Positions 38,116 through 56,223 of a DNA stretch of 64,000 nt are shown piece by piece. Below the pieces are notes generated by a model. It searched no databases. It was not told the DNA's origin and worked only from the letters and a program-made list of their open reading frames with translations. The position numbers and the translations under genes were made by a program. Origin of the DNA: Fundidesulfovibrio putealis DSM 16056 (GTDB taxonomy: Bacteria; Desulfobacterota; Desulfovibrionia; Desulfovibrionales; Desulfovibrionaceae). Numbering within the stretch: the stretch's first letter is position 1; each line of letters opens with the position of its first letter. The stretch lies in contig NZ_AUBQ01000015.1 in assembly GCF_000429325.1 (NCBI RefSeq), positions 62,001 to 126,000 of the forward strand, written 5' to 3'.

Positions 38116-38130
38116 GCAAACTGCGTGCCA
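38116..38130 (-). promoter_or_regulatory. Sigma-54 promoter of the zraP1-ccmF-TPR-selenoprotein operon
   Basis: Minus strand TGGCACGCAGTTTGC matches the consensus TGGCACG-N4-TTGC at every defined base. Start codon is 73 bp downstream. Confidence 0.88.
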
Positions 38131-38218
38131 AATGTTTGTGTTGATACAATATGCTGAGATTGCTGACTATTTATTGGTGTAGGTTGCATGCTTCAAGGTT
38201 GGGCTGAACTGTATGTGC

Positions 38219-38270
38219 AATTTCTGGGCACGGTTTTGCACATTGTGGGTAAAAAGTATCCGTGGGGGTT
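38219..38270. promoter_or_regulatory. Probable enhancer box (box A), homologous to box B at 44316-44366
   Basis: About 50 bp alignable without gaps to 44316-44366, sharing TTTCTGG, TTGTGGGTAAAAA and TATCC. The TATCC core is about 135 bp upstream of the sigma-54 promoter at 38116, as its twin is of the promoter at 44211. Likely binding site of the ZraR-like activator (inference). Confidence 0.65.
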
Positions 38271-38527
38271 TTCGCTCACTACCACGCTGACACGCGCCCC
38301 CATTATCGGCCTCCTTTGCTGGAGACCATTATAGATCGTGGTCGCACCAATAGCGCCCAGGTCCCGAAAAAGCGAACGAGGCTCCGGCAGTCCAACCCGC
38401 TGGGGCCTCCTTTTCGTGGACCCCATCCATCAGGTCTATCTATTTATCATATTGACATTCAAAATTTCAATTTGCCCGGACGGGTTTCTGCCTCTACCCT
38501 CCAGCATCTCACCGCAGAGGAGCACCC

Positions 38528-39550
38528 ATGCACATCAGGATCTTCGCACGTTCTCTGGCCTCCCTTGTCGTCGGCCTGCTGCTGTCCCAGGCGGCCCTGG
38601 CCGCCCCAAAGGGGGCGACCGTGACCTACACCGTGGCCCCGGCCGTGATCGATGGCTCCAAGACGGCGCAGGTCTGGTTGCCCTATCCGCTCTCCAACGA
38701 AAACCAGACCATCACCGGTGTCACGGTGGGGGGGAATTTCACCGCCTCCGCCGTGTACCGGGACGCGAAATCCTCAGCGGTCTTTCTCCATGCCCAGTGG
38801 TCGGACCTCAAGGAAAAGCCGGTACTGACCATGCGTTTCCACGTCACGCCGGACTTCAGCAAGGGGTCCAAGTTGAAGAACTCCGGTGAGCCCATACCGG
38901 CGGACATCCGCTCCCGCTATCTGGACGAAGCCCCGGAGGGGTATTTTCGGCAGGTGGCAGCAAAGATCACCAGAGGCAGGACGTCCGTTCTGGAAAAGGC
39001 CCGAGCTGCGTACGATTGGACGATCGACAACACCTTCCGCGATCCCGAGGTCAAGGGCTGCGGCCTGGGCCTGCCTGGACGGACCATGACTCAGGGCAAG
39101 GGGGGCGGCAAATGCGCCGACATCTCCAGCGTCTTCGTGGCCCTGGCCCGGGCGGCCGGGGTACCCGCCCGCGAGGTGGTCGGGCTGCGCCTGGCCGAGC
39201 CCAAGGACGGAGAAATCACGAGTGATTTCCACTGCTGGGCCGAATTCTATCTGCCTGGCCACGGCTGGGTGATGGTCGATCCAGCCGACGTGCGCAAGAT
39301 GATGCTCGTCAACAAACTGGAGCTAAAGGATGCGGAAAACAGGAAATGGCGGGAGTTCTTCTGGAACGGGGACGATCTCTTCCGCATCGTGCTGAACAAG
39401 GACTCCCGGGAGGTGGAGCTGACCCCGAGGCAGCACGGGGAAGCGCTCACCTACTTCATGTATCCCTTCGGCCAAGTGGACGGGGAAACCCTCAACTTCT
39501 TCGACCCCAAGAAATTCAGCTACAAGGTCGATTTGACGCTCGACCGCTAG
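38528..39550 (+). CDS. Exported transglutaminase-like protein
   Basis: A 340-residue secreted protein with signal peptide (MHIRIFARSLASLVVGLLLS, cleavage near ALAAP); GAGGAG 5 bp before the ATG. The C-terminal two thirds hold a transglutaminase/protease-like core with all three catalytic positions: Cys in KGGGKCADISSVF, His in DFHCWAEFYLPGHGW and Asp in MVDPADVR. An N-terminal beta domain precedes it. Such proteins act as cysteine proteases or cross-linkers in the envelope. The stop codon TAG is also the insertion target (CTAG) of the IS element that follows. Confidence 0.88.
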   Translation: MHIRIFARSLASLVVGLLLSQAALAAPKGATVTYTVAPAVIDGSKTAQVWLPYPLSNENQTITGVTVGGNFTASAVYRDAKSSAVFLHAQWSDLKEKPVLTMRFHVTPDFSKGSKLKNSGEPIPADIRSRYLDEAPEGYFRQVAAKITRGRTSVLEKARAAYDWTIDNTFRDPEVKGCGLGLPGRTMTQGKGGGKCADISSVFVALARAAGVPAREVVGLRLAEPKDGEITSDFHCWAEFYLPGHGWVMVDPADVRKMMLVNKLELKDAENRKWREFFWNGDDLFRIVLNKDSREVELTPRQHGEALTYFMYPFGQVDGETLNFFDPKKFSYKVDLTLDR

Positions 39551-39563
39551 GCCGCGTCGACAT

Positions 39564-40064
39564 TCACCTCAGCCAAACAGCGATGGCGGCGAGATGCAGA
39601 AAGGAAAGGAATGACGTCGCCAGCTTATCGTATCTGCTTGAAACTCTTCGAAACTGCTTGAGCTTGTTGAACATGCGTTCGATGACGTTTCTTTCTTTGT
39701 AAATATAACGATCATATTCTCGTTGTGTTTTTCGCAGACCCCGAGGCGGTATGACTGGCTCTGCGCCCTTCGCCTCAATAGCATCGATTATGGCTTGTGA
39801 GTCATATCCTTTGTCAGCAACAATATGTTCCGCATCTTGTCCTTCAATAAGTGGTATTGCTTGTGTATAATCTGACGCATTGCCACCTGTAAGAATAAAA
39901 CGAGTTGGACAGCCGAGGGCATCTGTGGTGGCATGGACTTTAGTTGAAAACCCACCTCTTGATCTACCAAATTTCTGCCACTGCTGCCCCCCGCGCGCCT
40001 GCTGCATGTTGATGCGCTCGAATGATTGTGCTGTCGACCATGAGCCATTCAGTGTCAGCATCAA
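39564..40064 (-). CDS. IS transposase, C-terminal frame (orfB)
   Basis: Frame of up to 166 residues with DDE catalytic parts: the second Asp in HIVADKGYDSQ and the Glu in YKERNVIERMFNKLKQFRR. It opens with no own ribosome site and overlaps orfA by about 100 bp in another frame, so expression by ribosomal frameshifting from orfA is expected. The extreme N-terminal residues listed by the open frame are probably not used. Confidence 0.85.
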   Translation of the reverse strand: MMLTLNGSWSTAQSFERINMQQARGGQQWQKFGRSRGGFSTKVHATTDALGCPTRFILTGGNASDYTQAIPLIEGQDAEHIVADKGYDSQAIIDAIEAKGAEPVIPPRGLRKTQREYDRYIYKERNVIERMFNKLKQFRRVSSRYDKLATSFLSFLHLAAIAVWLR

Positions 40065-40317
40065 CAGCCAATGTATTGAATATCATTTGCCAGACGCCAT
40101 TCTTTGACCAACGAATGAACCGTTTGTGCACCGTTGCCCACTTCCCATACTCACCGGGTAAGTCACGCCAAGGAGCACCCGTCTTTGCGATCCACATTAC
40201 GGCGTCAATAAAAAGTCTATTATCAGATGCAGTTCTCCCTCTGTCACCAATCTTTCCAGGAAGTGCATCTTTGATCTTCTCCCACTGATCATCCCTAAGA
40301 GCATGTCTGCGTTCCAT
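39964..40317 (-). CDS. IS transposase, N-terminal frame (orfA)
   Basis: A 117-residue N-terminal part of an IS5/IS427-like transposase. It starts MERRHALRDDQWEKIKDALP, with the DUF4096-like helix-turn-helix (FIDAVMWIAKTGAPWRDLP, YGKWATVHKRFIRWSKNGVW), and carries the first catalytic Asp in LMVDSTIIRAHQHAAGA. The C-terminal end after AAGARG is the out-of-frame tail; the true product continues in orfB. Confidence 0.87.
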   Translation of the reverse strand: MERRHALRDDQWEKIKDALPGKIGDRGRTASDNRLFIDAVMWIAKTGAPWRDLPGEYGKWATVHKRFIRWSKNGVWQMIFNTLAVDADTEWLMVDSTIIRAHQHAAGARGAAVAEIW

Positions 40318-40371
40318 TGCAGTCCTCCTGTGCTGATCAATAGCACAGGAGGCTACTAATGTCGACAGGCC

Positions 40372-40452
40372 CTAGGCCGTGCCGACATTTATCTCAACAA
40401 GATGGCAATCGCGGCGACATCCAGGGACGAAAGGACGAGAGCTACCGTAAGA
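40372..40452 (-). pseudogene. Relic of the end of a second, related IS
   Basis: Directly right of the IS, the sequence repeats a diverged form of the IS left end. On the minus strand it reads VLSSLDVAAIAILLR-stop, matching the orfB end FLSFLHLAAIAVWLR-stop, and then the inverted repeat (ATGTCGGCACGGCC against ATGTCGACGCGGCC). Only about 80 bp remain. The intact IS therefore landed at the CTAG border of an older, mostly deleted relative. Confidence 0.75.
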
Positions 40453-40575
40453 TGCTCCGCGCATGGCCAAGGAAAGCGGGATTGAGTCTCCAGCGGCTAA
40501 AGATGTCGCTCGCTTGGGTCGTAAGCGTATGGGCATGACGCTCTCGAACGAAGACCGGACGCGTTCTAAACATGA

Positions 40576-40605
40576 ACACCCCTTCCAGGAATCTGGAAGG
40601 GGTGT
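40576..40605 (-). terminator. Terminator of the chemoreceptor gene
   Basis: ACACCCCTTCCAG (40576-40588) pairs perfectly with CTGGAAGGGGTGT (40593-40605); minus-strand tail TTCATGTTT. Confidence 0.75.
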
Positions 40606-40713
40606 CACTGTTTGGGGAAGTCTCACCCATGGCGAGATACCTTCCAGAAGGAAGGCAGACTGGATGCTGGCGGTCAGACTGGGATAAGATCCAGTTATAA
40701 GGTGGAGGGGACG

Positions 40714-42814: not shown

Positions 42815-43327
42815 CTAGTAGCCCATGCCCTGATGACCCATGCCCATTCCACCCATTCCCATGCTGCCGCCCATCATCGGGCAACTCATGCCGCCCATCA
42901 TCCCCATGCCGCTCATGGCCGGGATGCCTTCCTTGGTCAGCTGGTTCTGGAGAGCCACCTGGGCCTCGAAGATCTTGGCGTTCAGGTCGGCGATATCCTT
43001 GGTCAGGGCCTGGACCTTCTTGTCGTCGGGCGTCGCGCTGTAGAGTTGGGCGTTCAGTTCGTACTGCTTCGCGGTCAACTGCTGGCGCATGGTGGCCGTC
43101 TTGGTGTTGAAGTCGGCGTATATCTTCTGGGCGGCGGCCTGCTTCTCAGGGGGCAGGTTCATCATCATGTTGCCGCCCATCATACCCTGTCCACCCATCA
43201 TGCCCATGCCCTGTCCGCCCATCATGCCGGGACCCATCATCTGCGCGTTGGCCAGGCCGCTGAGGCCGAGAAGGGCCACCAGGGCCAGGGCCACAGTCAG
43301 GCCGGAAATGTGCTTGCGAGTCTTCAT
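42815..43327 (-). CDS. ZraP/Spy-like periplasmic protein (copy 2)
   Basis: A 170-residue exported protein of the same family as 37570-38043: signal peptide [20 protein letters not shown], cleavage at ANAQ, a Met/Gly-rich head with repeated MMGGQGM units, the helical core [20 protein letters not shown] and [20 protein letters not shown], and a Met/Gly/His tail containing a cysteine ([10 protein letters not shown]). AAGGAG precedes the ATG. No sigma-54 site was found in its 235-bp upstream gap, so its control may differ from that of its paralogues. The chemoreceptor gene follows. Confidence 0.86.
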
Positions 43328-43561: not shown

Positions 43562-44122
43562 TCATTCTGATGGAAACCCCTTTTCAATCGAGAAACGTCT
43601 GGTTCTCCCCCATGGTTTTATGACAGAGATGCTGACAATGAAGAACACAGCAAACAATTGTATGATGTCCATTGTGTTGCGCATAACATAGACTGGCAAT
43701 GTTTCTGCTAACATTCCTTTGGCATTGTTAACGAATTCTCCATAAGAAAATAGCCTCTCCAGCCCGGGCATGTACCAAGCGAAGCCGAACGTTAAGTATG
43801 CAATGGTCATAATCCATTTGAAGACGATCCATTTATACTTGAGAAAACCAAATTTTGTGAGCGCAGCATAGGCAATTCCTGTGAGAAGGCAGCCGATGGC
43901 TGAGGGCGCGACGATGTAGTAGTCAATGTATGCTACTGACAAGCTGCTTGCATACAACTCGGACGCATTTTTCGGTTGAAAAAAACACTGTACGAGGGCG
44001 ACGCTGGCTGTAGAGCCTCCCCATAAAGAGGCACAAAAAAGATGAAATATCTTGATCAGACGTTGCTGGCGCACAGTAATTTTTATTGGTGTCCAAGTTT
44101 GCAAACTGATTACATTTAACAT
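43562..44122 (-). CDS. Membrane protein with four helices (DUF2269-like)
   Basis: A 186-residue integral membrane protein. Four hydrophobic segments: LIKIFHLFCASLWGGSTASV, IVAPSAIGCLLTGIAYAALT, KWIMTIAYLTFGFAWYMPG and IIQLFAVFFIVSISVIKPWG. The pattern with a first-helix His and Trp-Gly-Gly resembles DUF2269-type proteins, an assignment I hold loosely. I place the start at 44122 because GAGG stands 5 bp upstream and a sigma-54 promoter lies at 44211-44225, inside the longer open frame that begins at 44251; transcripts from that promoter could not encode the longer form. Member of the ZraR-like regulon by its promoter and box B. Confidence 0.7.
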   Translation of the reverse strand: MLNVISLQTWTPIKITVRQQRLIKIFHLFCASLWGGSTASVALVQCFFQPKNASELYASSLSVAYIDYYIVAPSAIGCLLTGIAYAALTKFGFLKYKWIVFKWIMTIAYLTFGFAWYMPGLERLFSYGEFVNNAKGMLAETLPVYVMRNTMDIIQLFAVFFIVSISVIKPWGRTRRFSIEKGFPSE

Positions 44123-44210: not shown

Positions 44211-44225
44211 GCACATTGCGTGCCA
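44211..44225 (-). promoter_or_regulatory. Sigma-54 promoter of the four-helix membrane protein
   Basis: Minus strand TGGCACGCAATGTGC: one mismatch to TGGCACG-N4-TTGC, keeping the invariant GG and GC at 10-bp spacing. Lies 89 bp before the start at 44122. Confidence 0.7.
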
Positions 44226-44315
44226 AGTTCTATTTTTTTTGTTAATGGCATGGAATGATATGATATTTATGAACATGGCCGTGTGTTTCATAATCAAGCG
44301 GCACAAGGGCGGGTG

Positions 44316-44366
44316 ATTTCTGGACATGGTGCCTGGGTGTTGTGGGTAAAAAATATCCATGAGGTT
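44316..44366. promoter_or_regulatory. Probable enhancer box (box B), homologous to box A at 38219-38270
   Basis: Shares TTTCTGG, TTGTGGGTAAAAA and TATCC with box A; the TATCC core is about 136 bp upstream of the sigma-54 promoter at 44211. The neighbouring gap (44123-44491) holds no gene. Confidence 0.65.
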
Positions 44367-47660: not shown

Positions 47661-48797
47661 TCACCTGCCATGTCCGCCCCTGTTGCCTCCACCGCCGCCG
47701 CTACCACTACCGCTGCTACCACTACCGCTGCCGCCACTACCGCTGCCGCCGCTACCGCTGCCGCCGCTACCGCTGCCGCCGCTACCGCTGCCGCCGCTAC
47801 CGCTGCCGCTGCCGCTACCGCTACCGCCGCTACCGCTGCTGCCACTCCCGCTTCTACTGCTAGCCCCTTCAGACCCATCGTGACCGCCACTCCCCACAGA
47901 CTCTCCACCCTGGCTCTTGCCGCCAGACCAAGAATTGGTTTTGTCGGTGCTCCGCCCGGTTGCTGCGTCCCCAGGCATTCCCTCTCTCTGGGTCCCAGTA
48001 GGGGCCGTGTCCCGGTTGTTTACGGCAGACTGACGAGCAGTATGTTCGCTGAGGCCAAGCGCCGTCGGCACGCCCCGCATGTCGCCAAACTTACCGATAG
48101 AGTCCATCATGGCCGACATCGCTTTATCCTGCGTAATGCCTTGCTCCGCTGCCAATTTGCTCATTGTGGCCAACGAGTTCCAGTCCGAGAAGCGATCACT
48201 CATCATGGCGGCCTCGATGACATTCCTGGCGCTGTCAGGGTTTATCCCGCGCTGCTTCAATGCGGCATACGCCTCTGTTCCCTGCGTCAAGGAGGGAAGT
48301 GAAGAGGCTGGAGCCGTTCTGATCATTGACGATAATTCGTCCCGGGTGACGCCGTAGCCATAGCAATCCGCAAGGCGTCCGATAAGGTCGGCCCGCACGG
48401 TGTCGGGCCAATTCTTTCTGTATTGTCCGAGCAAGTTTTTCACTTCCGAATAGTCATTAACCCTACGCTCCAGAACAGATGCCACCTTCATCGGGGGGAC
48501 GCGCTTGGTCAGTCCTTCGTCCAGTTTGTCGTTGAGGGGCTTGTGGGGCATACTCAAAAGACGCGCTTTCTCCATGACGCCAAGAAGTGCCGTAGCTTCC
48601 TCAACATTGATTTTATTTTCGGACTTTAGCGACAAAATGTGCCCAGAGTATGGATCTCCACCGACACCACTGGCTGTTGTTCCAGAAGTTTCTGAAAGGG
48701 AACGCGTTTGCGCATATAAATTACACGCCAAGAGTGGCAGCATGAATGCAGTGGCTAGCGCCGCAGTGACAATGAGTAGTCTATATGGATAAGTCAT
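47661..48797 (-). CDS. Exported protein with C-terminal Ser-Gly repeats, last gene of the ECF sigma operon
   Basis: A 378-residue exported protein. Signal peptide after MTYPYRLLIVTAALATAFML with a cysteine in LLACNLYAQ that may be a lipobox. Residues 30-240 are mostly helical, without a family I recognise; residues 300-378 are a GSGGSGSGGSGS run ending GGGGGNRGGHGR, encoded by a degenerate hexamer tract (47690-47850). It overlaps the end of the upstream CBM48 gene by 17 bp, so it is translationally coupled. It may be an export target or co-regulator of the sigma system (inference). Confidence 0.72.
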   Translation of the reverse strand: MTYPYRLLIVTAALATAFMLPLLACNLYAQTRSLSETSGTTASGVGGDPYSGHILSLKSENKINVEEATALLGVMEKARLLSMPHKPLNDKLDEGLTKRVPPMKVASVLERRVNDYSEVKNLLGQYRKNWPDTVRADLIGRLADCYGYGVTRDELSSMIRTAPASSLPSLTQGTEAYAALKQRGINPDSARNVIEAAMMSDRFSDWNSLATMSKLAAEQGITQDKAMSAMMDSIGKFGDMRGVPTALGLSEHTARQSAVNNRDTAPTGTQREGMPGDAATGRSTDKTNSWSGGKSQGGESVGSGGHDGSEGASSRSGSGSSGSGGSGSGSGSGSGGSGSGGSGSGGSGSGGSGSGGSGSGSSGSGSGGGGGNRGGHGR

Positions 48798-49410
48798 TGT
48801 TGTTTCCAATTATTAGTACTGAATTGCGACTCCCAAAGCCATCATCTTCGCACATTATGGCACTTGGGTCAGGCTCGACATTCATTTCATTGACAAGAAA
48901 AGCATATTTGTGCCGGCCTGGATTCAAGGGTAGAGTAAGAACCCAGGAGCCGTTATCCAGCCGACGCATCTCATTTCCGCCGGGTGTCCACTCATTGAAT
49001 GAGCCAACAACCGCAACAGTGCGGGCTTGAGGTGAGTGAAATACAAAGGACACAACTTGCTTTCCGGACGGATCTTGGCGGACATCGACGGTATTAAGGT
49101 TCACTTTTTCCCGAATGCCCAGCACGAGCAACATGGCAGCTAGTGCGAAGGCTGGAGCAATCTTAAGGGGACTATAGGTTATGGTGCGAGGTGATTTCAC
49201 CCAGTCGGCGAACCTTGCCCATGCACTCTTCCCCTTGCTGGCAACCGGCAGGCTGGCCATCACCATGTCCGTGAATGCGTCTGGGACACGTTGGTCTGGA
49301 AGTTCCCTTAAGGCACATGCAATCTCACGAAGGTCAATCTCTTCTGGAGAAAGGATCCGGCGGCCAGTTCCTTTTTGCTCTTCATCTCCAGATTGATTAT
49401 CGTATGGCAT
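48781..49410 (-). CDS. Anti-sigma-factor-like membrane protein with periplasmic CBM48 domain
   Basis: A 209-residue single-pass protein. Cytoplasmic N-terminus (residues 1-80, EEIDLREIACALRELPDQRV), one helix (PLKIAPAFALAAMLLVLGI), then a periplasmic glycogen-binding CBM48/AMPK-beta-like domain: VVSFVFHSPQARTVAVVGSF, NEWTPGGNEMRRLDNGSWV, PGRHKYAFLVNEMNVEPDPS. It overlaps the ECF sigma gene by 14 bp. Position, topology and size are those of an anti-sigma factor whose outer domain would sense a carbohydrate-like ligand (inference). No zinc-finger (HxxxCxxC) anti-sigma motif is present. Confidence 0.75.
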   Translation of the reverse strand: MPYDNQSGDEEQKGTGRRILSPEEIDLREIACALRELPDQRVPDAFTDMVMASLPVASKGKSAWARFADWVKSPRTITYSPLKIAPAFALAAMLLVLGIREKVNLNTVDVRQDPSGKQVVSFVFHSPQARTVAVVGSFNEWTPGGNEMRRLDNGSWVLTLPLNPGRHKYAFLVNEMNVEPDPSAIMCEDDGFGSRNSVLIIGNNNDLSI

Positions 49411-50071
49411 GATTTTGCTCCCTCAACATCAGACGTAGACGCCCAAGCCCTCTGCTGACTCGCATCTTCGCTCCGCTTAACGTCAGTCCAAGCGCATCGG
49501 CCACTTCCTGCAAAGACAACTCGTGATGGTATCGCAGCATCACCGCTTCCCTGTAATCCTCGGGCAGTTTCAGCACCGCCGCACTGAGACGCGCGGCATC
49601 GAGCCTCTGGCACATCTTCTCGGATTCTTCCGCATAGTCGCCAACCTCCTCTTCAGGATCTTCCTCGTAACTCACAGGTGCGGTTTTCTTCCGCCGAAGA
49701 TAGTCGCGTGCCACGTTCATGGATATCGAATAAAGCCAGGGAAAAAACCGTGCAGAGCCATTAAATTTGTTGATGTTTTGATAGGCTTTTATGAACGCTT
49801 CCTGGGATAGGTCTAATGCCTCCGCTTCAGACCCTGACATACGGAGCATGAGGTTATATATTGGCCTCTGGTGTCGATCGACGATAACCCTATAGGCGTT
49901 GGCGTTCCCAGAAAGTACGGCACGAATCGCATCACGTTCTTGGTGTTCCGCGTCGTTGCTCGTTACATCCTTATTCCTGTGCACGTCAGGCTGTCCTTGT
50001 ATCGAACTGGCCACCTCCCCTGGATTCCCGGAGGATTGACGGCTGGAGGAAGCGAGGTCGGCGGTCCTCAT
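49397..50071 (-). CDS. ECF-family RNA polymerase sigma factor
   Basis: A 224-residue sigma factor. Region 2 is clear: NAYRVIVDRHQRPIYNLMLR, SEAEALDLSQEAFIKAYQNI, ARFFPWLYSISMNVARDYLR; region 4 follows: LPEDYREAVMLRYHHELSLQ then EVADALGLTLSGAKMRVSRG. The first 45 residues are a Ser/Asp-rich extension. The start at 50071 lacks a clear ribosome site, but a relic copy at 53420-53549 aligns from the same point. It is followed by the CBM48 anti-sigma-like gene (14-bp overlap) and preceded by a CBM48 lipoprotein. Confidence 0.88.
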   Translation of the reverse strand: MRTADLASSSRQSSGNPGEVASSIQGQPDVHRNKDVTSNDAEHQERDAIRAVLSGNANAYRVIVDRHQRPIYNLMLRMSGSEAEALDLSQEAFIKAYQNINKFNGSARFFPWLYSISMNVARDYLRRKKTAPVSYEEDPEEEVGDYAEESEKMCQRLDAARLSAAVLKLPEDYREAVMLRYHHELSLQEVADALGLTLSGAKMRVSRGLGRLRLMLREQNHAIR

Positions 50072-50108
50072 AATAAGATATACGAACTGGAGATGAATAT
50101 GGTCACGA

Positions 50109-50489
50109 TCATTCCACCACCAGGACAGAGTTTTTGCCGCCGAACCCGTCGTCCTCCGAAATGATTGCCCTCGGATCATGAATCATTGTCTTCGAGTCAA
50201 TGATCAGCTGGTATTTGTAGCGTCCAGGACCGAAACGCTTTTCCAGTGCGAAGCCGCTTTTTTGCTTGGAAAGGCAGTCCGCCGTTGTGGACCATCCATT
50301 GAAATCGCCTGTAACGCATACAGAATCAGCACCCTTATCCAGATAGCTGAATCTGATGACGGCTTCTTTCCCAGTATCCCTTCCCTGAAGAGGGTGGCGA
50401 GCTGCGACAATATGACAACCGGCCAGTACAATGGAGATGAGCGGAAGTAACGCACGGAGAAGTTTTCTTAGGAAATGTTCTGTAATCAT
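50109..50489 (-). CDS. Lipoprotein with CBM48 (glycogen-binding-like) domain
   Basis: A 126-residue probable lipoprotein. Hydrophobic residues 9-23 lead to the lipobox IVLAGC. The rest is one CBM48/isoamylase-N domain: VIRFSYLDKGADSVCVTGDF, NGWSTTADCLSKQKSGFALE, GPGRYKYQLIIDSKTMIHDP, and the end EDDGFGGKNSVLVVE. The last part is nearly the same as the end of the anti-sigma-like protein (EDDGFGSRNSVLIIG), so the two domains are close relatives. Located 37 bp before the sigma gene; probably part of the same signalling unit. Confidence 0.78.
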   Translation of the reverse strand: MITEHFLRKLLRALLPLISIVLAGCHIVAARHPLQGRDTGKEAVIRFSYLDKGADSVCVTGDFNGWSTTADCLSKQKSGFALEKRFGPGRYKYQLIIDSKTMIHDPRAIISEDDGFGGKNSVLVVE

Positions 50490-50553
50490 GGTTGTAGTCC
50501 GATGCTTCCTGGTGCCTGTCCTCCAGGTGCTGCTGGACGGAGACAAAGATGAG

Positions 50554-50615: not shown

Positions 50616-51062
50616 TTACCAGCACCACCCCATGTTCATTCCATGGTGCATTCCGCCCGCCATCATGCCCATGCCGCCCATGGCCGGAATGCCTTCCCTG
50701 GTCAGTTGGTTCTGGAAAGCCGCCTGGGCTTCGTAAAACTTCGAGTTCAGGTCGGCGATTTCCTTGCTCAAGGACTTGATCTTCTTGTCATCCGGGTTGG
50801 AGGTGTTAAGCAGGACGTTCAGCTCATACTGCTTGGCGTTCAGGCGCTGCCCCAGGGTGGCCGTCTTGGCGTTGAAGTCCGCGTAAAGCTTTTGGGCGGC
50901 GGCCTGCTTTTCCGGGGTCAGACCGTACATGGGGCCGCCCATCATCTGGGGGCCGCCCATCATTCCGGGACCCATCATTTGGGCGTTTGCCAGCCCGCTC
51001 AGACCGAGAAGGGCCACCAGGGCAAGCGTCAGGGTCAAGGCGTGCATTCGAGAGGTCTTCAT
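50616..51062 (-). CDS. ZraP/Spy-like periplasmic protein (copy 3; cluster 1 gene a)
   Basis: A 148-residue exported protein, last gene of cluster 1. Signal peptide [20 protein letters not shown], cleavage at ANAQ; Met/Gly-rich head ([19 protein letters not shown]), helical core ([40 protein letters not shown]) and a Met/His/Gly tail ending GMNMGWCW. AAGGAAAA precedes the ATG at 51062. It is nearly the same as 54056-54505, differing at a handful of residues. Family role: zinc-binding periplasmic chaperone and feedback regulator of ZraS. The Trp/Cys ending is not seen in the copies at 37570 and 42815. Confidence 0.87.
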   Translation of the reverse strand: MKTSRMHALTLTLALVALLGLSGLANAQMMGPGMMGGPQMMGGPMYGLTPEKQAAAQKLYADFNAKTATLGQRLNAKQYELNVLLNTSNPDDKKIKSLSKEIADLNSKFYEAQAAFQNQLTREGIPAMGGMGMMAGGMHHGMNMGWCW

Positions 51063-51100
51063 AGTCGTTTTCCTTTTGGGTTCAGATTGAATCAGGTGGC

Positions 51101-51403
51101 CTAATACCAGCCGCATCCCCAACCACCGTAGCCGTAGCCGGGAGCGTATCCCCTGGGAGCGTACGCCTGCGGTCCGGGCGCATAGCCGGGGCCGTAATAG
51201 CAGGGACCGTAGTAGCCGGGACCGTAGTAGCCGGGGGCGGGTGCGTACGTTCCGGCCGGGACCTGCTGCACGACCGAGGGCTGGGCCGTGGTGGAGGTGT
51301 CAGGGGTCTGGGCCGAAGCCATGTTGGGAATCCCCGCGAGGGAGGCTAAGCCGAGAGCCAGCGCCAGTCCAACGTTTCTGGACTTTTTAAGTATGGATTT
51401 CAT
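51101..51403 (-). CDS. Small secreted Tyr/Gly/Pro-rich protein (cluster 1 gene b)
   Basis: A 100-residue exported protein. AAGGAG precedes the ATG; signal peptide MKSILKKSRNVGLALALGLA, cleavage at ASAQT. After a short Thr/Gln linker, the mature part is a repeat of GYYGPGYYGP units, then YAPRGYAPGYGYGGWGCGWY at the C-terminus with one cysteine. Closely matches the protein at 54544-54840. Tyr/Gly-rich chains of this kind are usually disordered, adhesive or metal- and matrix-binding; no family known to me. Lies 38 bp before gene a. Confidence 0.78.
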   Translation of the reverse strand: MKSILKKSRNVGLALALGLASLAGIPNMASAQTPDTSTTAQPSVVQQVPAGTYAPAPGYYGPGYYGPCYYGPGYAPGPQAYAPRGYAPGYGYGGWGCGWY

Positions 51404-51454
51404 TTGCGTTTCTCCTTGATTTTGTGCGTTTTCGGCGCGGTTAAAGGTTCTGGA

Positions 51455-51739
51455 TTACCACCACCAGCCGCCCCAGCCGCCCCAAAAGGACGTGGGCTGA
51501 GAGGTGGTTCCCGGTGTCGCGATGGTTGTGGTTGCCGTGGTGCTCGAAGCGGCAGGCCACCACATCATGGGCCAAGACCAGTTGCCGAAAGTTGCGGGCG
51601 AAGACTGTGCGATCTGGATAGTGGCCTGCGGCTGGACGGTGGTGGTCTGTGCCGGGGACGGCAAGGCCGACCCGGCCAGGATGGCCGCGCTAAGAGCCAC
51701 GGCGGCGAGGAAGGTGGTCTTTTTCGATCTTGTCTTCAT
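51455..51739 (-). CDS. Small secreted Thr/Gln/Trp-rich protein (family C; cluster 1 gene c)
   Basis: A 94-residue exported protein; GAGGATATCTGT precedes the ATG at 51739. Signal peptide MKTRSKKTTFLAAVALSAAI, cleavage at SPAQ; mature part TTTVQPQATIQIAQ, then FGNWSWPMMWWPAASSTTAT and a Trp/Gly ending WGGWGGWWW. Homologous to 54895-55173 and 47075-47368. The unusual tryptophan clusters may insert in a membrane or bind sugars; function unknown. Confidence 0.77.
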   Translation of the reverse strand: MKTRSKKTTFLAAVALSAAILAGSALPSPAQTTTVQPQATIQIAQSSPATFGNWSWPMMWWPAASSTTATTTIATPGTTSQPTSFWGGWGGWWW

Positions 51740-51856
51740 ACAGATATCCTCACGTACAGTTTTGGTTGATTTCATTTGTTCCGCCGAAGCCGGGCAAGGA
51801 CGACGGTGAAGGTGGAGAGGGTGGCTTAACAACACCCGGCTCCGGCGGTATTTTTA

Positions 51857-52165
51857 TCACCAGGAGCAGCCGTATCCGTAGCCGTATCCGCGCGGGCCGT
51901 AATGCCGCCCTTGGCCGTAGTATCCGCCCGAGGTGTTGACGTACCGTTTGTAATTCTTCGGCGTAACGTACCCGTACGTATTCTGCTGAGGCGGATACGC
52001 CTGCTGATTCTGCACCACCGATTGCGGCACAGGCTGCACCCAGTTCTGGTCATAGCCGTACATCATCTGAGCCTTAGCTTCCTGGAAGGAACCGGAAACA
52101 GCCAGGCCTCCGGCCAGGACAGCAGCCATTGCGAATCCCTTCAGCATCCGCTTTTGAAAAGTCAT
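51857..52165 (-). CDS. Small secreted Gln/Tyr/Gly-rich protein (cluster 1 gene d)
   Basis: A 102-residue exported protein with AAGGAGGG before the ATG at 52165. Signal peptide MTFQKRMLKGFAMAAVLAGG, cleavage near AKAQ; mature part MMYGYDQNWVQPVPQSVVQN, QQAYPPQQNTYGYVTPKNYK, RYVNTSGGYYGQGRHYGPRG and the ending YGYGYGCSW. The product at 55282-55593 is the same over the whole mature region except the last residues, although synonymous and promoter differences show the copies are not brand new. No known family. Confidence 0.78.
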   Translation of the reverse strand: MTFQKRMLKGFAMAAVLAGGLAVSGSFQEAKAQMMYGYDQNWVQPVPQSVVQNQQAYPPQQNTYGYVTPKNYKRYVNTSGGYYGQGRHYGPRGYGYGYGCSW

Positions 52166-52185
52166 GTTGTTTCCCTCCTTAGTTA

Positions 52186-52422
52186 CTACAGCACGCTCTT
52201 GAGCGTGTTGTAGTCGTCCATGTTGATATCGCCCCTGGCCAGCCTGGTCTTCAGGATTGCCAGCGAATCGTTTCTGTCGGCATCCTGGTTGCCGTTCCTG
52301 GACTTCCCGCAGAGCGTCTTGAAGGCCAGGAGGGCAATTCCGCCCAGAATCAACAACCAGAACACCATCGGAATCCATCCGCCCCAGCCTGATGCGTAGG
52401 GTATGTAGTCGCAGCCCCACAT
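52186..52422 (-). CDS. Small membrane protein with SHOCT domain (cluster 1 gene e)
   Basis: A 78-residue protein: short N-terminus MWGCDYIPYASGWGGW, one transmembrane helix (IPMVFWLLILGGIALLAFK), a CGKSRNGNQDADRND linker and a C-terminal SHOCT motif (LAILKTRLARGDINMDDYNT LKSVL read as one helix-turn-helix). SHOCT (short C-terminal) domains are found on many small membrane proteins and are thought to aid oligomerisation. AGGAGG precedes the ATG. Nearly the same as 55614-55850. It is the only member of the cluster that is clearly an inner-membrane protein. Confidence 0.82.
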   Translation of the reverse strand: MWGCDYIPYASGWGGWIPMVFWLLILGGIALLAFKTLCGKSRNGNQDADRNDSLAILKTRLARGDINMDDYNTLKSVL

Positions 52423-52434
52423 TCGTTTCTCCTC

Positions 52435-52599
52435 CTATCTCCCGTACCCGCCGTAGGGGCCGTAATTGGCGGGGGCGCTGTAGTAGCCGGAGCCGCTCCA
52501 GTATCCGCCCGAGCACCAGCCGGGGCCGCCCCAGGATCGGTACGGAGCGCACGAGGCGACCAGCAGAAGAGCCGCGACAGCCAGAAGAACCTTATTCAT
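52435..52599 (-). CDS. Tiny Gly/Tyr-rich lipoprotein (cluster 1 gene f)
   Basis: A 54-residue lipoprotein, too short for most gene finders. It reads MNKVLLAVAALLLVASC (lipobox VASC), then APYRSWGGPGWCSGGYWSGS and GYYSAPANYGPYGGYGR. AGGAGG lies upstream of the ATG at 52599. The counterpart at 55863-56048 has the same signal region and the same composition with one GGGPGW unit more. It is the first gene after the sigma-54 promoter at 52654-52668. Confidence 0.75.
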   Translation of the reverse strand: MNKVLLAVAALLLVASCAPYRSWGGPGWCSGGYWSGSGYYSAPANYGPYGGYGR

Positions 52600-52653
52600 G
52601 ATGAGCCTCCTTGCGTTCCCTTTTCAGTTTCAACGCGAGATGGAACCTATAAG

Positions 52654-52668
52654 GCAAGCGCCGTGCCA
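52654..52668 (-). promoter_or_regulatory. Sigma-54 promoter of small-protein cluster 1
   Basis: Minus strand TGGCACGGCGCTTGC matches TGGCACG-N4-TTGC at every defined base, 55 bp before gene f. Confidence 0.9.
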
Positions 52669-52760
52669 GTATGAAAATATTAATCTATTTGCTTAAAATA
52701 ATTAACTTTATGCTGTTCTGCCGGGTTTGTGCGCAACCTGGATGTGTTTTTGAGTGCGTC

Positions 52761-52776
52761 AAAAGTATCCACTTTT
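52761..52776. promoter_or_regulatory. Probable enhancer palindrome (box C)
   Basis: AAAAGT-ATCC-ACTTTT, a perfect inverted repeat about 107 bp upstream of the sigma-54 promoter. The counterpart box D keeps the symmetry with paired changes. Confidence 0.72.
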
Positions 52777-52842
52777 TGCTGGGTGCGATGCGTAAAATGG
52801 TAACTTGTTTCCGGCGGCAACTTGAAACGAAGAGGAACTCGA

Positions 52843-53113
52843 AATGACAGGGAGGCTTGCGTTCCATCCTTTTCTCATGCCCAATTCTTCTTCAGCTTTG
52901 CCCCTGTTTGATCGTGGGGGGCCGTAATCTTCCGGTGTGGCATCGCCATGCTGGCCGCCAGGAACAGACTGCGGGAAGGGCGACGCATGTCCCAGAGCCT
53001 CGTGGACAGGCCGAGGTGCTGATTTGGGCTTTGGAGGCCGGAAACGCGGACTTGGATGGGATTTCTAGGCGGGAATCGCTAGGTTCAGGCGTTGGTGGTG
53101 GAGTCTGCTAATA
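52843..53113 (+). pseudogene. Relic of the 5' end of a zraS-like histidine kinase gene
   Basis: Aligns with the first 270-280 bp of the intact kinase gene at 56291: shared stretches include GGCTTGCG/AGCTTGCG, TTGATCGTGGG, TGGCCGCCAGGAA, CATGTCCCAGA.CCTCGTGGAC and GCTGATTTGGGCT.TGGAGG. Frameshifts and stops interrupt it early (a TAA follows ATCGTGGGGGGCCG), and nothing of the kinase core remains. Its upstream region, including the enhancer palindrome, is kept because it also serves cluster 1 on the other strand. Confidence 0.85.
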
Positions 53114-53218: not shown

Positions 53219-53389
53219 CTATTCTGAACACCTATTCTCTTTCATTTTTAACCTCTCAGGGGCAACGCCAAAGCAGATCCTCCGCGACCGTTTGGCCCAT
53301 AGCTCAGCCGTGCGCATCAGGCGGTCCTCTGGCCAGTCTGGATGAGCTGACCGGAGGATTTTAAGTTGGTGGTTGAGGACGTAATCCAT
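53219..53389 (-). CDS. Small hypothetical protein
   Basis: A 56-residue product, MDYVLNHQLKILRSAHPDWP and onward, basic (RSRRICFGVAPERLKMK) with one cysteine. GGGAG lies 5 bp before the ATG at 53389. No signal peptide. It is in the gap left by decay of the duplicated sigma gene, and I see no relation to that gene. Real coding status is uncertain. Confidence 0.4.
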   Translation of the reverse strand: MDYVLNHQLKILRSAHPDWPEDRLMRTAELWAKRSRRICFGVAPERLKMKENRCSE

Positions 53390-53419
53390 GGAGTCTCCCA
53401 TTTAACCCGGCTGGGCCTC

Positions 53420-53549
53420 TTTGCTGGCCATGGGCACGGTGGTCATATCCCTTTTGTATGGACACATCGTGCCGTTGTTTCATTGAATCAGCCATCTCTA
53501 TTGGATGCCTGAAGGGCTGATCGTTGGAGGACACGCGATCGGCGGTCCT
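53420..53549 (-). pseudogene. Relic of the 5' end of an ECF sigma gene
   Basis: On the minus strand, AGGACCGCCGA..CG...TCCTCCA.C and the following bases align with the start of the sigma gene at 50071, giving IRTADRVSSNDQP against MRTADLASSSRQS. The start codon is changed (ATG to ATA) and the alignment fades after about 110-130 bp. It shows that the tandem duplication once included the sigma gene. Confidence 0.6.
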
Positions 53550-53555
53550 TATGTT

Positions 53556-53762
53556 TCATAAAGATAGATATTGTGATTTGTCTTTCCACTCATTAGTATC
53601 TATGACCTCTGTAAACTCAAGTGGAGAGCATTTAATATTCCATGATTTGCCGCAGGAATGGCATTCAAAGCAAGCAGTCAGAAATTCAACGCCGTAGTCT
53701 CTGTTCATGCCATGGTCACCGATATGCTCGAGCGAGCTTTTACATGCTGGACAAATGAACAT
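53556..53762 (-). CDS. Small zinc-ribbon-like protein
   Basis: A 68-residue product with two CxxC knuckles: FICPACKSSLEHIGDH and CFECHSCGKSWNIKC. This spacing is that of a zinc ribbon. A weak AGG precedes the ATG at 53762. AT-rich compared with its neighbours. It occupies the place where the CBM48 lipoprotein gene would be expected in the second copy of the duplication, so it may have entered by insertion. Function unknown. Confidence 0.55.
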   Translation of the reverse strand: MFICPACKSSLEHIGDHGMNRDYGVEFLTACFECHSCGKSWNIKCSPLEFTEVIDTNEWKDKSQYLSL

Positions 53763-53992
53763 CACATGCCTGACATTGGTATAAGTAGTTTCCTGTGCAT
53801 ATGTCTTCCAGATAAAAAGTAAATATTATGGGTGATGAGGCTTTGCAACTCCATCGCCAACCCTTCTTGTGGTGGCATGGCCAGCATCCGCCTCTTCCGA
53901 GGGGCTCTCAGGTTAAAACCGTCTCACTTCAGTATACGTACCGGAGGATAATATGGTCACGATCATAATTACGCCCAGGAGAATGAAGGGAA

Positions 53993-54025
53993 GAAGAGAT
54001 GGGGGGAGCGTTTCCCCATCTCTTC
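53993..54025 (-). terminator. Terminator of small-protein cluster 2
   Basis: GAAGAGATGGGG pairs with CCCCATCTCTTC around GGAGCGTTT. Compared with 50554-50586, the C-G pair became T-A and an A-T pair became G-C, keeping all 12 pairs. Confidence 0.78.
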
Positions 54026-54055
54026 CTCTTGTGATGCATTAGTATGCCGTTCCAG

Positions 54056-54505
54056 CTACCAGCATCTCCATCCCATGCCCATGCCATGGTGCATTCCGCC
54101 AGCCATCATGCCCATGCCGCCCATGGCCGGAATACCTTCCCTGGCCAGTTGGTTCTGGAAAGCCGCCTGGGCTTCGTAAAACTTCGAGTTCAGGTCGGCG
54201 ATTTCCTTGCTCAAAGACTTGATCTTTTTGTCATCCGGGTTGGGGGTGTTAAGCAGGACGTTCAGCTCATACTGCTTGGCGTTCGACTGCTGCCCCAGGG
54301 TGGCCGTCTTGGCGTTGAAGTCCGCGTAAAGCTTTTGGGCGGCGGCCTGCTTTTCCGGGGTCAGACCGTACATGGGGCCACCCATCATCTGGGGGCCGCC
54401 CATCATTCCGGGACCCATCATTTGGGCGTTTGCCAGCCCGCTCAGACCGAGAAGGGCCACCAGGGCAAGCGTCAGGGTCAAGGCGTGCATTCGAGAGGTC
54501 TTCAT
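54056..54505 (-). CDS. ZraP/Spy-like periplasmic protein (copy 4; cluster 2 gene a)
   Basis: A 149-residue exported protein, nearly identical to 50616-51062 in signal peptide, Met/Gly head and helical core; differences include QQSNAK for QRLNAK, TPNPDD for TSNPDD, LAREG for LTREG and a tail GMGMGWRCW. Last gene of cluster 2, followed by the terminator at 53993-54025. As ZraP is the feedback partner of ZraS, and zraSR lies at the other end of this cluster, this copy is probably the cognate one (inference). Confidence 0.87.
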   Translation of the reverse strand: MKTSRMHALTLTLALVALLGLSGLANAQMMGPGMMGGPQMMGGPMYGLTPEKQAAAQKLYADFNAKTATLGQQSNAKQYELNVLLNTPNPDDKKIKSLSKEIADLNSKFYEAQAAFQNQLAREGIPAMGGMGMMAGGMHHGMGMGWRCW

Positions 54506-54543
54506 AGTCGTTTCCCTTTTGGGTTCAGATTGAATCAGGTGGC

Positions 54544-54840
54544 CTAATACCAGCCGCATCCCCAACCACCGTAGCCGTAGCCGGGAGCGTATCCTCTGGG
54601 AGCGTACGCCTGCGGTCCGGGCGCATAGCCGGAGCCGTAATAGCCGGGGCCGTAGTAGCCGGGGGCGGGTGCGTACGTTCCGGCCGGGACCTGCTGCACG
54701 ACCGGGGGCTGGGCTTGATCCGCCGTGGCGGGGGCATTTGGGGTCTGGGCCGAAGCCATGTTGGAAATCCCCGCGAGGATGGCGACGCCGAGGGCCAGCG
54801 CCAGCCCGACATTTCTGGACTTTTTGAGTATGGCTTTCAT
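54544..54840 (-). CDS. Small secreted Tyr/Gly/Pro-rich protein (cluster 2 gene b)
   Basis: A 98-residue exported protein, AAGGAG before the ATG. Signal peptide MKAILKKSRNVGLALALGVA, cleavage at ASAQT; linker NAPATADQAQPPVVQQVPAG; then GYYGPGYYGSGYAPGPQ and the conserved end APGYGYGGWGCGWY. It has one GYYGP unit fewer than its paralogue at 51101-51403 and lacks that protein's internal cysteine. Lies 38 bp before gene a, the same spacing as in cluster 1. Confidence 0.78.
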   Translation of the reverse strand: MKAILKKSRNVGLALALGVAILAGISNMASAQTPNAPATADQAQPPVVQQVPAGTYAPAPGYYGPGYYGSGYAPGPQAYAPRGYAPGYGYGGWGCGWY

Positions 54841-54894
54841 GCGCGTTTCTCCTTAAATTTATGCGTTAGCTGTGTGGTTGACGGTTTTAGGTTA

Positions 54895-55173
54895 CTACCA
54901 CCAGCCGCCCCAACAGCCCCAGAAGGCCGTGGGCTGGGTAGTGGTCACCTGCGGGGCAACCGGCACAGTACCCGAATTGCCCGAGGTGGTGGGCCACCAC
55001 ATCGTGGGCCAGTTCCAGCCGCTGTAAACGTTGGCAGGCAGCACGCCCTGGACTGTGGCCTGCGGCTGGACCGTGGTGGTCTGTGCCTGGGACGGCAAGG
55101 CCGACCCGACCAAGATGGCCGCACCAAGAGCCATGGCGGCGATGAAGGAAGTCTTCTTCGATTTCGTTTTCAT
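54895..55173 (-). CDS. Small secreted Thr/Gln/Trp-rich protein (family C; cluster 2 gene c)
   Basis: A 92-residue exported protein with GGAGG 8 bp before the ATG at 55173. Signal peptide MKTKSKKTSFIAAMALGAAI, cleavage at PSQAQ; mature TTTVQPQATVQGVLPANVYS, GWNWPTMWWPTTSGNSGTVP and the ending FWGCWGGWW. In the middle it is closer to the orphan at 47075-47368 (VLP..VY.GWNWPT) than to its cluster 1 partner, which suggests that the orphan arose from this copy or that gene conversion has occurred. Confidence 0.78.
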   Translation of the reverse strand: MKTKSKKTSFIAAMALGAAILVGSALPSQAQTTTVQPQATVQGVLPANVYSGWNWPTMWWPTTSGNSGTVPVAPQVTTTQPTAFWGCWGGWW

Positions 55174-55281
55174 CTTGATATCCTCCAATGCATGGTTAAA
55201 ATTGATTGCGTTTGATCCGCCGAAGCCGGGCAAGGCCGGAGGTGGAGGTGGGGGGACGAAACCCGGCTCCGGCGAAATTTT

Positions 55282-55593
55282 TTACCACCAAGAGCAGCCG
55301 TATCCGTAGCCGTATCCGCGCGGGCCGTAATGCCGCCCTTGGCCGTAGTATCCGCCCGAGGTGTTGACGTACCGTTTGTAATTCTTCGGTGTAACGTATC
55401 CGTACGTATTCTGCTGAGGCGGATACGCCTGCTGATTCTGCACCACCGATTGGGGCACAGGCTGCACCCAGTTCTGGTCATAGCCGTACATCATCTGCGC
55501 CTTAGCTTCCTGGAAGGAACCGGAAACAGCCATGCCTCCGGCCAGGACAGCAGCCATTGCGAATCCCTTCAGCATCCTCTTTTGAAAAGTCAT
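55282..55593 (-). CDS. Small secreted Gln/Tyr/Gly-rich protein (cluster 2 gene d)
   Basis: A 103-residue exported protein, GGAGGG 7 bp before the ATG at 55593. Signal peptide MTFQKRMLKGFAMAAVLAGG, cleavage near AKAQ; the mature region matches 51857-52165 residue for residue up to YGYGYGCSW and adds one Trp. Such conservation, with silent base changes between the copies, indicates purifying selection on the protein. No known family. Confidence 0.78.
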   Translation of the reverse strand: MTFQKRMLKGFAMAAVLAGGMAVSGSFQEAKAQMMYGYDQNWVQPVPQSVVQNQQAYPPQQNTYGYVTPKNYKRYVNTSGGYYGQGRHYGPRGYGYGYGCSWW

Positions 55594-55613
55594 GTTGTTT
55601 CCCTCCATATTTA

Positions 55614-55850
55614 CTACAGCACGCTCTTGAGCGTGTTGTATTCGTCCATGTTGATTTCGCCCCTGGCCAGCCTGGTCTTCAGGATTGCCAGCGAATCGTT
55701 TCTGTCGGCATCCTGGTTGCCGTTCCTAGGTTTCCCGCAGAGCGCCTTGAAGGCCAGGAGGGCGATTCCGCCCAGAATCAACAACCAGAACACCATCGGA
55801 ATCCATCCGTTCCAGCCGGACGCATAGGGAATATAGTTACAACCCCACAT
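55614..55850 (-). CDS. Small membrane protein with SHOCT domain (cluster 2 gene e)
   Basis: A 78-residue protein, AGGAGGG before the ATG. One transmembrane helix (IPMVFWLLILGGIALLAFK) and a C-terminal SHOCT helix pair (LAILKTRLARGEINMDEYNT, then LKSVL). Differs from 52186-52422 by conservative changes (N for D, E for D, A for T). Function unknown; inner membrane. Confidence 0.82.
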   Translation of the reverse strand: MWGCNYIPYASGWNGWIPMVFWLLILGGIALLAFKALCGKPRNGNQDADRNDSLAILKTRLARGEINMDEYNTLKSVL

Positions 55851-55862
55851 ATTGTATCCCTC

Positions 55863-56048
55863 CTACCAGCCGTACCCGCCGTAAGAACCGTACTGTGAAG
55901 GGGCACTGTATCCGTAACCGCCCCAGTATCCGCCCGAGCAGTTCCAGCCCGGACCGCCCCCGTACCAGCCGGGGCCGCCCCCGTACTGGTACGGAGCGCA
56001 CGAGGCGACCAGCAGAAGAGCCGCGACAGCCAGAAGAACCTTATTCAT
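55863..56048 (-). CDS. Tiny Gly/Tyr-rich lipoprotein (cluster 2 gene f)
   Basis: A 61-residue lipoprotein: MNKVLLAVAALLLVASC (lipobox VASC), then APYQYGGGPGWYGGGPGWNC, SGGYWGGYGYSAPSQYGSYG and GYGW. The GGGPGW unit is duplicated compared with the cluster 1 copy. First gene after the sigma-54 promoter at 56103-56117; gene e follows 12 bp later. Confidence 0.78.
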   Translation of the reverse strand: MNKVLLAVAALLLVASCAPYQYGGGPGWYGGGPGWNCSGGYWGGYGYSAPSQYGSYGGYGW

Positions 56049-56102
56049 GATGAGCCTCCTTGCGTTCCCTGTTTCGGTTCAACGCGAGATGTCACCAGTA
56101 GG

Positions 56103-56117
56103 GCAAATGGCGTGCCA
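56103..56117 (-). promoter_or_regulatory. Sigma-54 promoter of small-protein cluster 2
   Basis: Minus strand TGGCACGCCATTTGC matches TGGCACG-N4-TTGC at every defined base, 55 bp before gene f. The N4 spacer differs from cluster 1 (CCAT against GCGC), while the contacted bases are kept. Confidence 0.9.
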
Positions 56118-56209
56118 ACACGGAATATTGTATTTATTTATATAAAATAATTGACTTTAGTTTTTTGTCACCAAGTCGGTAGGCTCCCTGGACGTGCTTG
56201 TGCATCCCG

Positions 56210-56223
56210 GAAGTATCCACTTC
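56210..56223. promoter_or_regulatory. Probable enhancer palindrome (box D)
   Basis: GAAGT-ATCC-ACTTC, a perfect inverted repeat 106 bp upstream of the cluster 2 promoter and 68 bp upstream of the zraS start. It may serve both directions. Confidence 0.72.

Follow-up and report, generated by a model that had tools for sequence, protein, structure and literature searches.

The 64,000-nucleotide (nt) stretch analysed here, hereafter the window, comes from the genome of Fundidesulfovibrio putealis DSM 16056 (4.71 Mb, 29 contigs; window C8:62001-126000). It encodes a ZraSR-type two-component system, consisting of a sensor kinase and a sigma-54 activator, and divergent from it a six-gene cluster (cluster 2) whose last gene encodes a ZraP-like protein. 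A duplicate of this cluster (cluster 1), a predicted membrane protein gene and a gene series headed by another ZraP-like gene, zraP1, lie further along the minus strand. All four units have a sigma-54 promoter preceded by a two-site enhancer, and we consider it very probable that they form one ZraR-type sigma-54 regulon for envelope or metal stress. The entire study was computational, and the regulon, the binding and the activation are predictions from sequence. The regulatory features are as follows.

56291..58090, plus strand: ZraS-type sensor kinase (Pfam, NCBIfam)
58100..59476, plus strand: ZraR-type sigma-54 activator with GAFTGA loop (Pfam, NCBIfam)
56103..56117, minus strand: cluster 2 sigma-54 promoter (-24/-12), exact TGGCACG-N4-TTGC
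56238..56252, minus strand: cluster 2 enhancer site 1, GTAACTATTTTACAC, 135 bp upstream of TGG
56206..56220, minus strand: cluster 2 enhancer site 2, degenerate, GTGGATACTTCCGGG, containing the TATCC box (register by alignment)
52654..52668, minus strand: cluster 1 sigma-54 promoter, exact TGGCACG-N4-TTGC
52790..52804, minus strand: cluster 1 enhancer site 1, weak, GTTACCATTTTACGC, 136 bp upstream of TGG
52758..52772, minus strand: cluster 1 enhancer site 2, GTGGATACTTTTGAC (alignment)
44211..44225, minus strand: membrane gene sigma-54 promoter, one mismatch, TGTGC at -12
44344..44358, minus strand: membrane gene enhancer site 1, GGATATTTTTTACCC, 133 bp upstream of TGG (profile R1 and matrix, below)
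44311..44325, minus strand: membrane gene enhancer site 2, GTCCAGAAATCACCC (alignment)
38116..38130, minus strand: zraP1 sigma-54 promoter, exact TGGCACG-N4-TTGC
38247..38261, minus strand: zraP1 enhancer site 1, GGATACTTTTTACCC, 131 bp upstream of TGG (profile R1 and matrix)
38215..38229, minus strand: zraP1 enhancer site 2, degenerate, GCCCAGAAATTGCAC (alignment)

The three exact sigma-54 sites and the near match reported in the initial annotation were all recovered, on the minus strand. Each has -24 TGGCA and -12 TGC elements at standard spacing before a gene, with TGTGC at -12 in the membrane gene promoter only. Measured from the -12 GC, the first ATG lies 54 nt away in both clusters, 72 nt at zraP1 and 88 nt at the membrane gene, close to the 55-90 bp given earlier. 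Two more sites with one mismatch occur in the window, at 9285 and 57499 on the plus strand, and the best plus-strand candidate for a sigma-54 promoter of zraSR itself between 56061 and 56300 agreed at only 7/11 positions. Genome-wide we found 13 exact sites, compared with 5 for a reversed control pattern. Three of the 13 fall inside the window, which makes up 1.4% of the genome, and two of these three are mutual duplicates.

Each of the four window promoters is preceded by two 15-bp sites, which begin 131-136 bp (site 1) and 99-104 bp (site 2) before TGG. Site 2 lies at 103 bp (cluster 2), 104 bp (cluster 1), 99 bp (zraP1) and 100 bp (membrane gene), positions that follow our own by-eye reading of the register of the aligned rows. 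The TATCC boxes described earlier, at about 106 or about 135 bp, do exist: GGATA, their minus-strand form, starts 101 bp upstream of TGG in cluster 2, 102 bp in cluster 1, 131 bp at zraP1 and 133 bp at the membrane gene. Their register and their division into two distance classes did not hold, because GGATA belongs to site 2 at the clusters, whereas zraP1 and the membrane gene have it in site 1. Once the promoters were aligned to their relatives a single geometry remained, and we rejected two enhancer classes by distance. We also rejected GGATA as a regulator box in itself, since just one of 12 kinase-linked promoters from relatives (L075) has GGATA within 220 bp, whereas nine have the aligned enhancer.

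These relatives came from a comparison set of 119 genomes, the source genome included, from which fifteen ZraS-type kinase regions were taken (two from the source genome, thirteen from relatives). A sigma-54-like site adjoining the kinase gene and directed away from it was present in 14 of the 15; the region L080 had none at the threshold used. Seven promoters of the genus group g55 have a strongly conserved block in common (e.g. CCTGTAACCGTTTTACCCATATTGTCCAGAACACTGTCACATCTTTACCCGC), made up of two similar 15-mers at the same distances as in the window, 131-136 and 99-104 bp. We trained a profile, R1, on nine enhancers from other genera (seven from g55, one from G007 and one from G060) and on no source-genome sequence. 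The G007 and G060 promoters are exceptions on distance, having site 1 at 125 and 120 bp.

When R1 was run on the source genome, with 150 of 190 first-look candidates scored and matches at an expectation value (E) of 10 or less listed, it returned four: zraP1 (0.0042), cluster 2 (0.064), the membrane gene (0.12) and the promoter of a second zraSR pair on contig 15 (1.1), whose site 1 lies at 134 bp. A joint pattern (TTTAC, 115-127 bp, YGGCAC-N5-TNGC) gave no match in the control and exactly four in the genome, at zraP1, at clusters 1 and 2 and at the zraSR promoter of contig 15; the membrane gene misses it because of TGTGC at -12. When a 31-column matrix was applied to the 7,996 bins of the window, the top three places went, in this order, to cluster 2, zraP1 and the membrane gene, and the seventh to cluster 1. 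At the enhancer distance it scored 27.6 (cluster 2), 25.0 (zraP1), 21.4 (membrane gene) and 8.4 (cluster 1), against -22 to -4 at the ten other exact sigma-54 sites. The one-regulon reading of the initial annotation is well supported: R1 found three of the four promoters, the joint pattern three of four, and the ten other exact sites lack the enhancer (0/10) and were rejected as members. At L013 we saw a lone GGATA at 112 bp. GGATA-like matches on contigs C2 and C3 and at C8:23580 were also rejected, having neither a real R1 match nor a nearby sigma-54 site.

Across the comparison set, R1 matches under 1e-4 occurred in ten genomes, all of them among the 37/119 that bear the kinase; eight of the ten were sources of the training set. 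Among promoters outside that set, a fitting enhancer was present in G066 at 134 bp (with CGGCACAGAACTTGC) and in G116 at 134 and 133 bp. The G116 enhancer at 133 bp is an R1 match of 35 bits, but with TTGT instead of TTGC at -12, and the one at 134 bp was matched by eye and not found by R1.

The regulator at 58100 has three parts: a receiver domain, a GAFTGA-bearing sigma-54 AAA+ domain and a helix-turn-helix (HTH) of the Fis type. Cluster 2, divergent from the pair, is a putative target that includes a ZraP-like gene and has both a sigma-54 promoter and two sites for the regulator. The best NCBIfam families were ZraR (score 625.7 of a required 760) and ZraS (474.6 of 479), both under the equivalog cut-offs, and we accordingly call the system ZraSR-type and not ZraSR proper. 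The earlier statement that the window encodes one NtrC-type activator with GAFTGA was correct for the window; the genome holds three zraSR pairs. The ZraS-like kinases lie at C8:118291, C15:6674 and C8:144726, each paired with a ZraR-like regulator. The contig-15 ZraR paralogue is 85% identical to the window ZraR and the regulator at C8:143761 69%, and the HTH region is almost identical among the window ZraR, the contig-15 paralogue and the g55 regulators. In all, 43 sigma-54 activator domain matches were found in the genome, 39 of them strong. The third zraSR locus (L068, G000:C8:136000-152000) has a sigma-54-like site with one enhancer-like site at 106 bp, and its zraP-like open reading frame (ORF) stops early, as if frameshifted.

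The genes placed behind the four promoters, and two features belonging with them, are as follows.

55863..56048, minus strand: cluster 2 gene 1, a 61-amino-acid (aa) protein without a Pfam match, in which LVASC was recognised by eye as a lipobox-like signal
55614..55850, minus strand: cluster 2 SHOCT-like small membrane protein (SHOCT E 4e-5, under Pfam's cut-off)
54544..55608, minus strand: cluster 2, three small proteins of 108, 112 and 98 aa with signal-like N-termini, rich in Gly/Tyr/Pro/Gln (ORFs)
54056..54565, minus strand: cluster 2 ZraP-like protein, by likeness to the cluster 1 copy
50616..52599, minus strand: cluster 1 operon, encoding lipoprotein-like, SHOCT-like, three small secreted-type and ZraP-like (50616-51122) proteins (ORFs; ZraP-like by Pfam and NCBIfam)
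52857..53111, plus strand: 5' remnant of a duplicated ZraS-type kinase gene, adjoining cluster 1 (ORF, alignment)
43562..44122, minus strand: predicted membrane protein with a weak DUF2269 match (Pfam; start set at 44122)
37570..38043, minus strand: ZraP-like protein 1 (Metal_resist; Pfam, NCBIfam)
37500..37575, minus strand: stable hairpin between zraP1 and ccmF, a possible attenuator (folding)
35582..37480, minus strand: CcmF/NrfE-type heme lyase; the genome encodes two CcmF_C proteins, of which this is one (Pfam, NCBIfam)
35011..35631, minus strand: tetratricopeptide repeat (TPR) protein with a weak match to the CcmH/CycH TPR domain (Pfam)
34102..34998, minus strand: UshA-like selenoprotein family 2, in-frame TGA at 34864-34866 (NCBIfam)

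All three ZraP-like proteins scanned (37570, 42815 and 50616) had a Metal_resist domain above Pfam's cut-off. Their best NCBIfam family was ZraP, with scores of 79.4 and 80.5 of a required 200, under the equivalog cut-off, hence the name ZraP-like. At four foreign loci the genes behind the promoter, named by likeness, were SHOCT-like then ZraP-like (two loci), ZraP-like alone (one), or lipoprotein-like first and ZraP-like later (one). The window clusters combine both kinds of first gene and add the three small secreted-type proteins. The 108-aa and 98-aa proteins of cluster 2 gave no match in a Pfam scan, and the 108-aa protein had no relative at E of 0.001 or less among the 118 other genomes. 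We set the membrane gene start at 44122 because the start of the longer ORF, 44251, lies upstream of the promoter.

The genes downstream of zraP1 had been described as a cytochrome c assembly operon, which they are not in full: they comprise only a second CcmF and a TPR protein, followed by the selenoprotein. The CcmF/NrfE-type protein scores below NCBIfam's NrfE cut-offs. It looks like a spare copy, because the other genomic CcmF, on contig 2, adjoins an ABC-type ATPase and two further proteins that we take to be CcmB-like and CcmC-like. The selenoprotein scored 270.6 against a cut-off of 140 for UshA-like selenoprotein family 2 (NF049981), with its in-frame TGA at CPxU; a selenocysteine insertion sequence (SECIS)-like hairpin after the TGA was no more stable than in shuffles (z -0.48). 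Its relatives occur in 67/119 genomes, most matches having one TGA, and with a rough pattern filter the CPxU motif was visible at 6/30 loci. A second copy lies in the source genome at G000:C2:193905.

With the window CcmF and TPR proteins as queries against 30 selenoprotein loci with 1.5-kb flanks, the CcmF-TPR-selenoprotein trio was present at two, in the source genome and in G116. In G116 the trio neighbours zraSR; upstream of it lies a SHOCT-like/ZraP-like unit that carries the enhancer, and between that unit and ccmF is a gene that we take to be IS200-like. This arrangement supports the link of the trio to the zraSR regulon. Between the window and G116 (L106/L077), which belongs to another family, CcmF is 76% identical over 304 residues, the TPR protein 54% and the selenoprotein 68%, while selenoprotein relatives from the same genus are only 35-37% identical to the window copy. 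These identities suggest horizontal transfer. We found no literature joining ZraP and CcmF within the limited paper collection searched.

Several results weigh against a single regulon of this composition. Sigma-54 matches with two or fewer mismatches numbered 19 in the window against 28.6 expected from shuffles, so that sigma-54 hexamer matches by themselves are little proof. Cluster 1 was not detected by R1 in the genome scan, and site 2 is degenerate at both clusters and zraP1. Over the 119 genomes R1 gave many matches between 0.01 and 0.2, as by chance, a range that contains the values for cluster 2 and the membrane gene. Since these E-values are individually weak, the case for membership rests on the common distance before a sigma-54 site on the correct strand, which chance does not predict, and the two clusters, which agree at 84% of 2,613 aligned positions, count as one observation. 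Of the 37 kinase-bearing genomes, 27, the source genome among them, lack an R1 match under 1e-4; the kinase was found at E of 1e-80 or less in none of six same-genus genomes; and both kinase-linked promoters of G021 (L078, L081), whose regulators differ in the recognition helix, gave no enhancer match. Relatives of the membrane gene occur in 17/119 genomes, including the source genome. At the 18 other loci with such relatives R1 found no enhancer, and a sigma-54 scan gave poor candidates at only seven, the best of them (L094) within the matched coding part, so membership of the membrane gene is seen in the source genome only. The NCBIfam scores below the equivalog cut-offs also tell against the reading, as does the presence of three zraSR pairs, which means that the activator of the promoters cannot be assigned uniquely. 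Finally, the 89-nt gap between zraP1 and ccmF holds a hairpin of -37.8 kcal/mol (z -3.36), strong enough to make co-transcription, and with it control of ccmF and the selenoprotein gene by the zraP1 promoter, only an inference.

Chance or mere copying as the source of the common sites is highly improbable in our judgement. The shortfall of window matches against shuffles, the likeness of the clusters and the singly weak E-values would fit it, but outside the enhancer the upstream DNA of zraP1, of the membrane gene and of the clusters looks unrelated by eye and still has equal site distances, and the foreign-trained profile, the joint pattern and the matrix ranks all single out the sites. A stronger alternative is that a paralogous ZraR, from contig 15 or C8:143761, is the real or a shared activator and that the window ZraR may serve some promoters only. 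With three ZraS-like kinases, near-identical recognition helices and a contig-15 promoter carrying the same enhancer, this is quite possible. Against it stand the divergent placement of the window pair and cluster 2 and the finding of one survey that regulators in Desulfovibrionales usually act on co-localized promoters (PMC4641369); the site sequences do not tell the ZraR copies apart. It is also conceivable, if rather unlikely, that only zraP1 belongs to the regulon, the hairpin ending transcription and the ccmF-TPR-selenoprotein genes answering to another promoter. The hairpin and its gap would allow this, as would G116, where the IS200-like gene separates zraP from ccmF and a weak sigma-54-like site precedes ccmF. 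A simple scan, however, called no stem-plus-T terminator in the gap and no sigma-70-type site before ccmF, and the order ZraP-CcmF-TPR-selenoprotein near zraSR is repeated in G116.

In systems of this type, phosphorylated activator dimers at two sites assemble a hexamer, which reaches the sigma-54 polymerase through looping. Under the single-regulon reading, the periplasmic part of ZraS would sense an envelope or metal signal and cause ZraR to be phosphorylated. Phosphorylated ZraR would bind the two 15-bp sites (roughly GNNN-N7-ACCC), which lie about 133 and 101 bp before the -24 element with a spacing of 32-33 bp, and DNA looping would deliver it to the sigma-54 polymerase, where ATP hydrolysis by the GAFTGA domain would open the promoter. 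The acting regulator may be the window ZraR, its contig-15 paralogue, or both. The products would be ZraP-like periplasmic chaperones, small lipoprotein-like and secreted-type proteins and the membrane protein, and read-through from zraP1 would add the spare CcmF-TPR heme lyase and the UshA-like selenoprotein, which might help to re-make c-type cytochromes damaged by metals. We tentatively propose that a ZraR-type regulon captured this spare holocytochrome-c synthase (CcmF and TPR) and selenoprotein, that they are induced by periplasmic metal stress together with the ZraP-like chaperones and rebuild c-type cytochromes, and that the module moves between Desulfovibrionales families with zraSR. 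The sensor part of the window kinase contains HGMHGMGH and CPDC, suggestive only as a hint of a response to zinc, lead or envelope stress. In Desulfovibrio alaskensis zraP was strongly lowered under copper (PMC8836040), so copper is not favoured as the inducer.

Like the window, Escherichia coli has divergent zraP and zraSR with a sigma-54-type promoter before zraP (TGGCACGGAAGATGC), paired inverted-repeat sites (GAGT-N7-ACTC twice) and a ZraR with the same recognition helix core. In a 9-kb E. coli stretch the best R1 match was the second zraP site (E 0.036). The spacing of the pair is nearly equal, 31 bp against 32-33 bp here, whereas the K-12 sites GAGTAAAAATGACTC and GAGTCATTTTTACTC start only 88 and 57 bp from TGG. 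This difference of 43-48 bp, about four helical turns, amounts to a natural experiment on enhancer geometry. Unlike the window genes, E. coli zraP stands alone and has no lipoprotein-like, SHOCT-like, secreted-type or CcmF genes with it. As in the NrfEFG/CcmFH heme lyases, a CcmF/NrfE-family protein is followed by a TPR protein, but in the window a ZraP-like gene with a ZraR-type enhancer precedes the pair, and the selenoprotein comes after it.

A regulon of this kind is already known in Desulfovibrionales, and cross-control of its targets has precedent. In Desulfovibrio vulgaris Hildenborough, DVU3381 is likewise a two-component GAFTGA response regulator with sigma-54 targets, placed in the envelope stress category, its targets being DVU3382-DVU3381 and DVU3384 (Kazakov 2015, PMC4641369). 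It was assayed in gel shifts, its sites are kept in close relatives, and DVU3384 is also a target of another regulator, DVU0621, a further point against a one-regulator assignment (Rajeev 2011, PMC3333781). Compared through these published descriptions, the DVU3381 regulon has two target units and ours four promoters at one locus, besides two more zraSR pairs. We take DVU3384 to be ZraP-like. A search of PMC7657598 for a ZraR motif gave none. New here are the size of the regulon, its uniform geometry and the CcmF-TPR-selenoprotein cargo, which stands beside zraSR in one other genome. The analysis offers a concrete ZraR-type enhancer of constant spacing, together with a profile valid across genera. 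The targets of such a regulator in sulfate reducers were once called hypothetical genes of unknown function (PMC3333781). If the spare heme lyase and selenoprotein do belong, metal stress would be tied to the supply of cytochrome c, on which bacteria of this kind rely.

Other genes lie around and between the regulon units. A Cd/Zn-type metal-exporting ATPase gene, divergent from a CadR/PbrR-type MerR regulator (31136-33949), adjoins the zraP1 operon. Downstream of the membrane gene is the further ZraP-like gene (Metal_resist) at 42815-43327 on the minus strand, which showed no exact sigma-54 site or R1 match of its own and is possibly carried on the membrane gene's transcript. Two overlapping minus-strand ORFs at 39564-40317, between regulon units, resemble the two parts of an IS5-type transposase divided over different frames. 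The minus-strand genes at 47661-50546 encode a sigma-70-family factor resembling the extracytoplasmic function (ECF) type, two small CBM48/AMPK1_CBM proteins and a Ser/Gly-repeat protein, and look like a separate regulatory unit.

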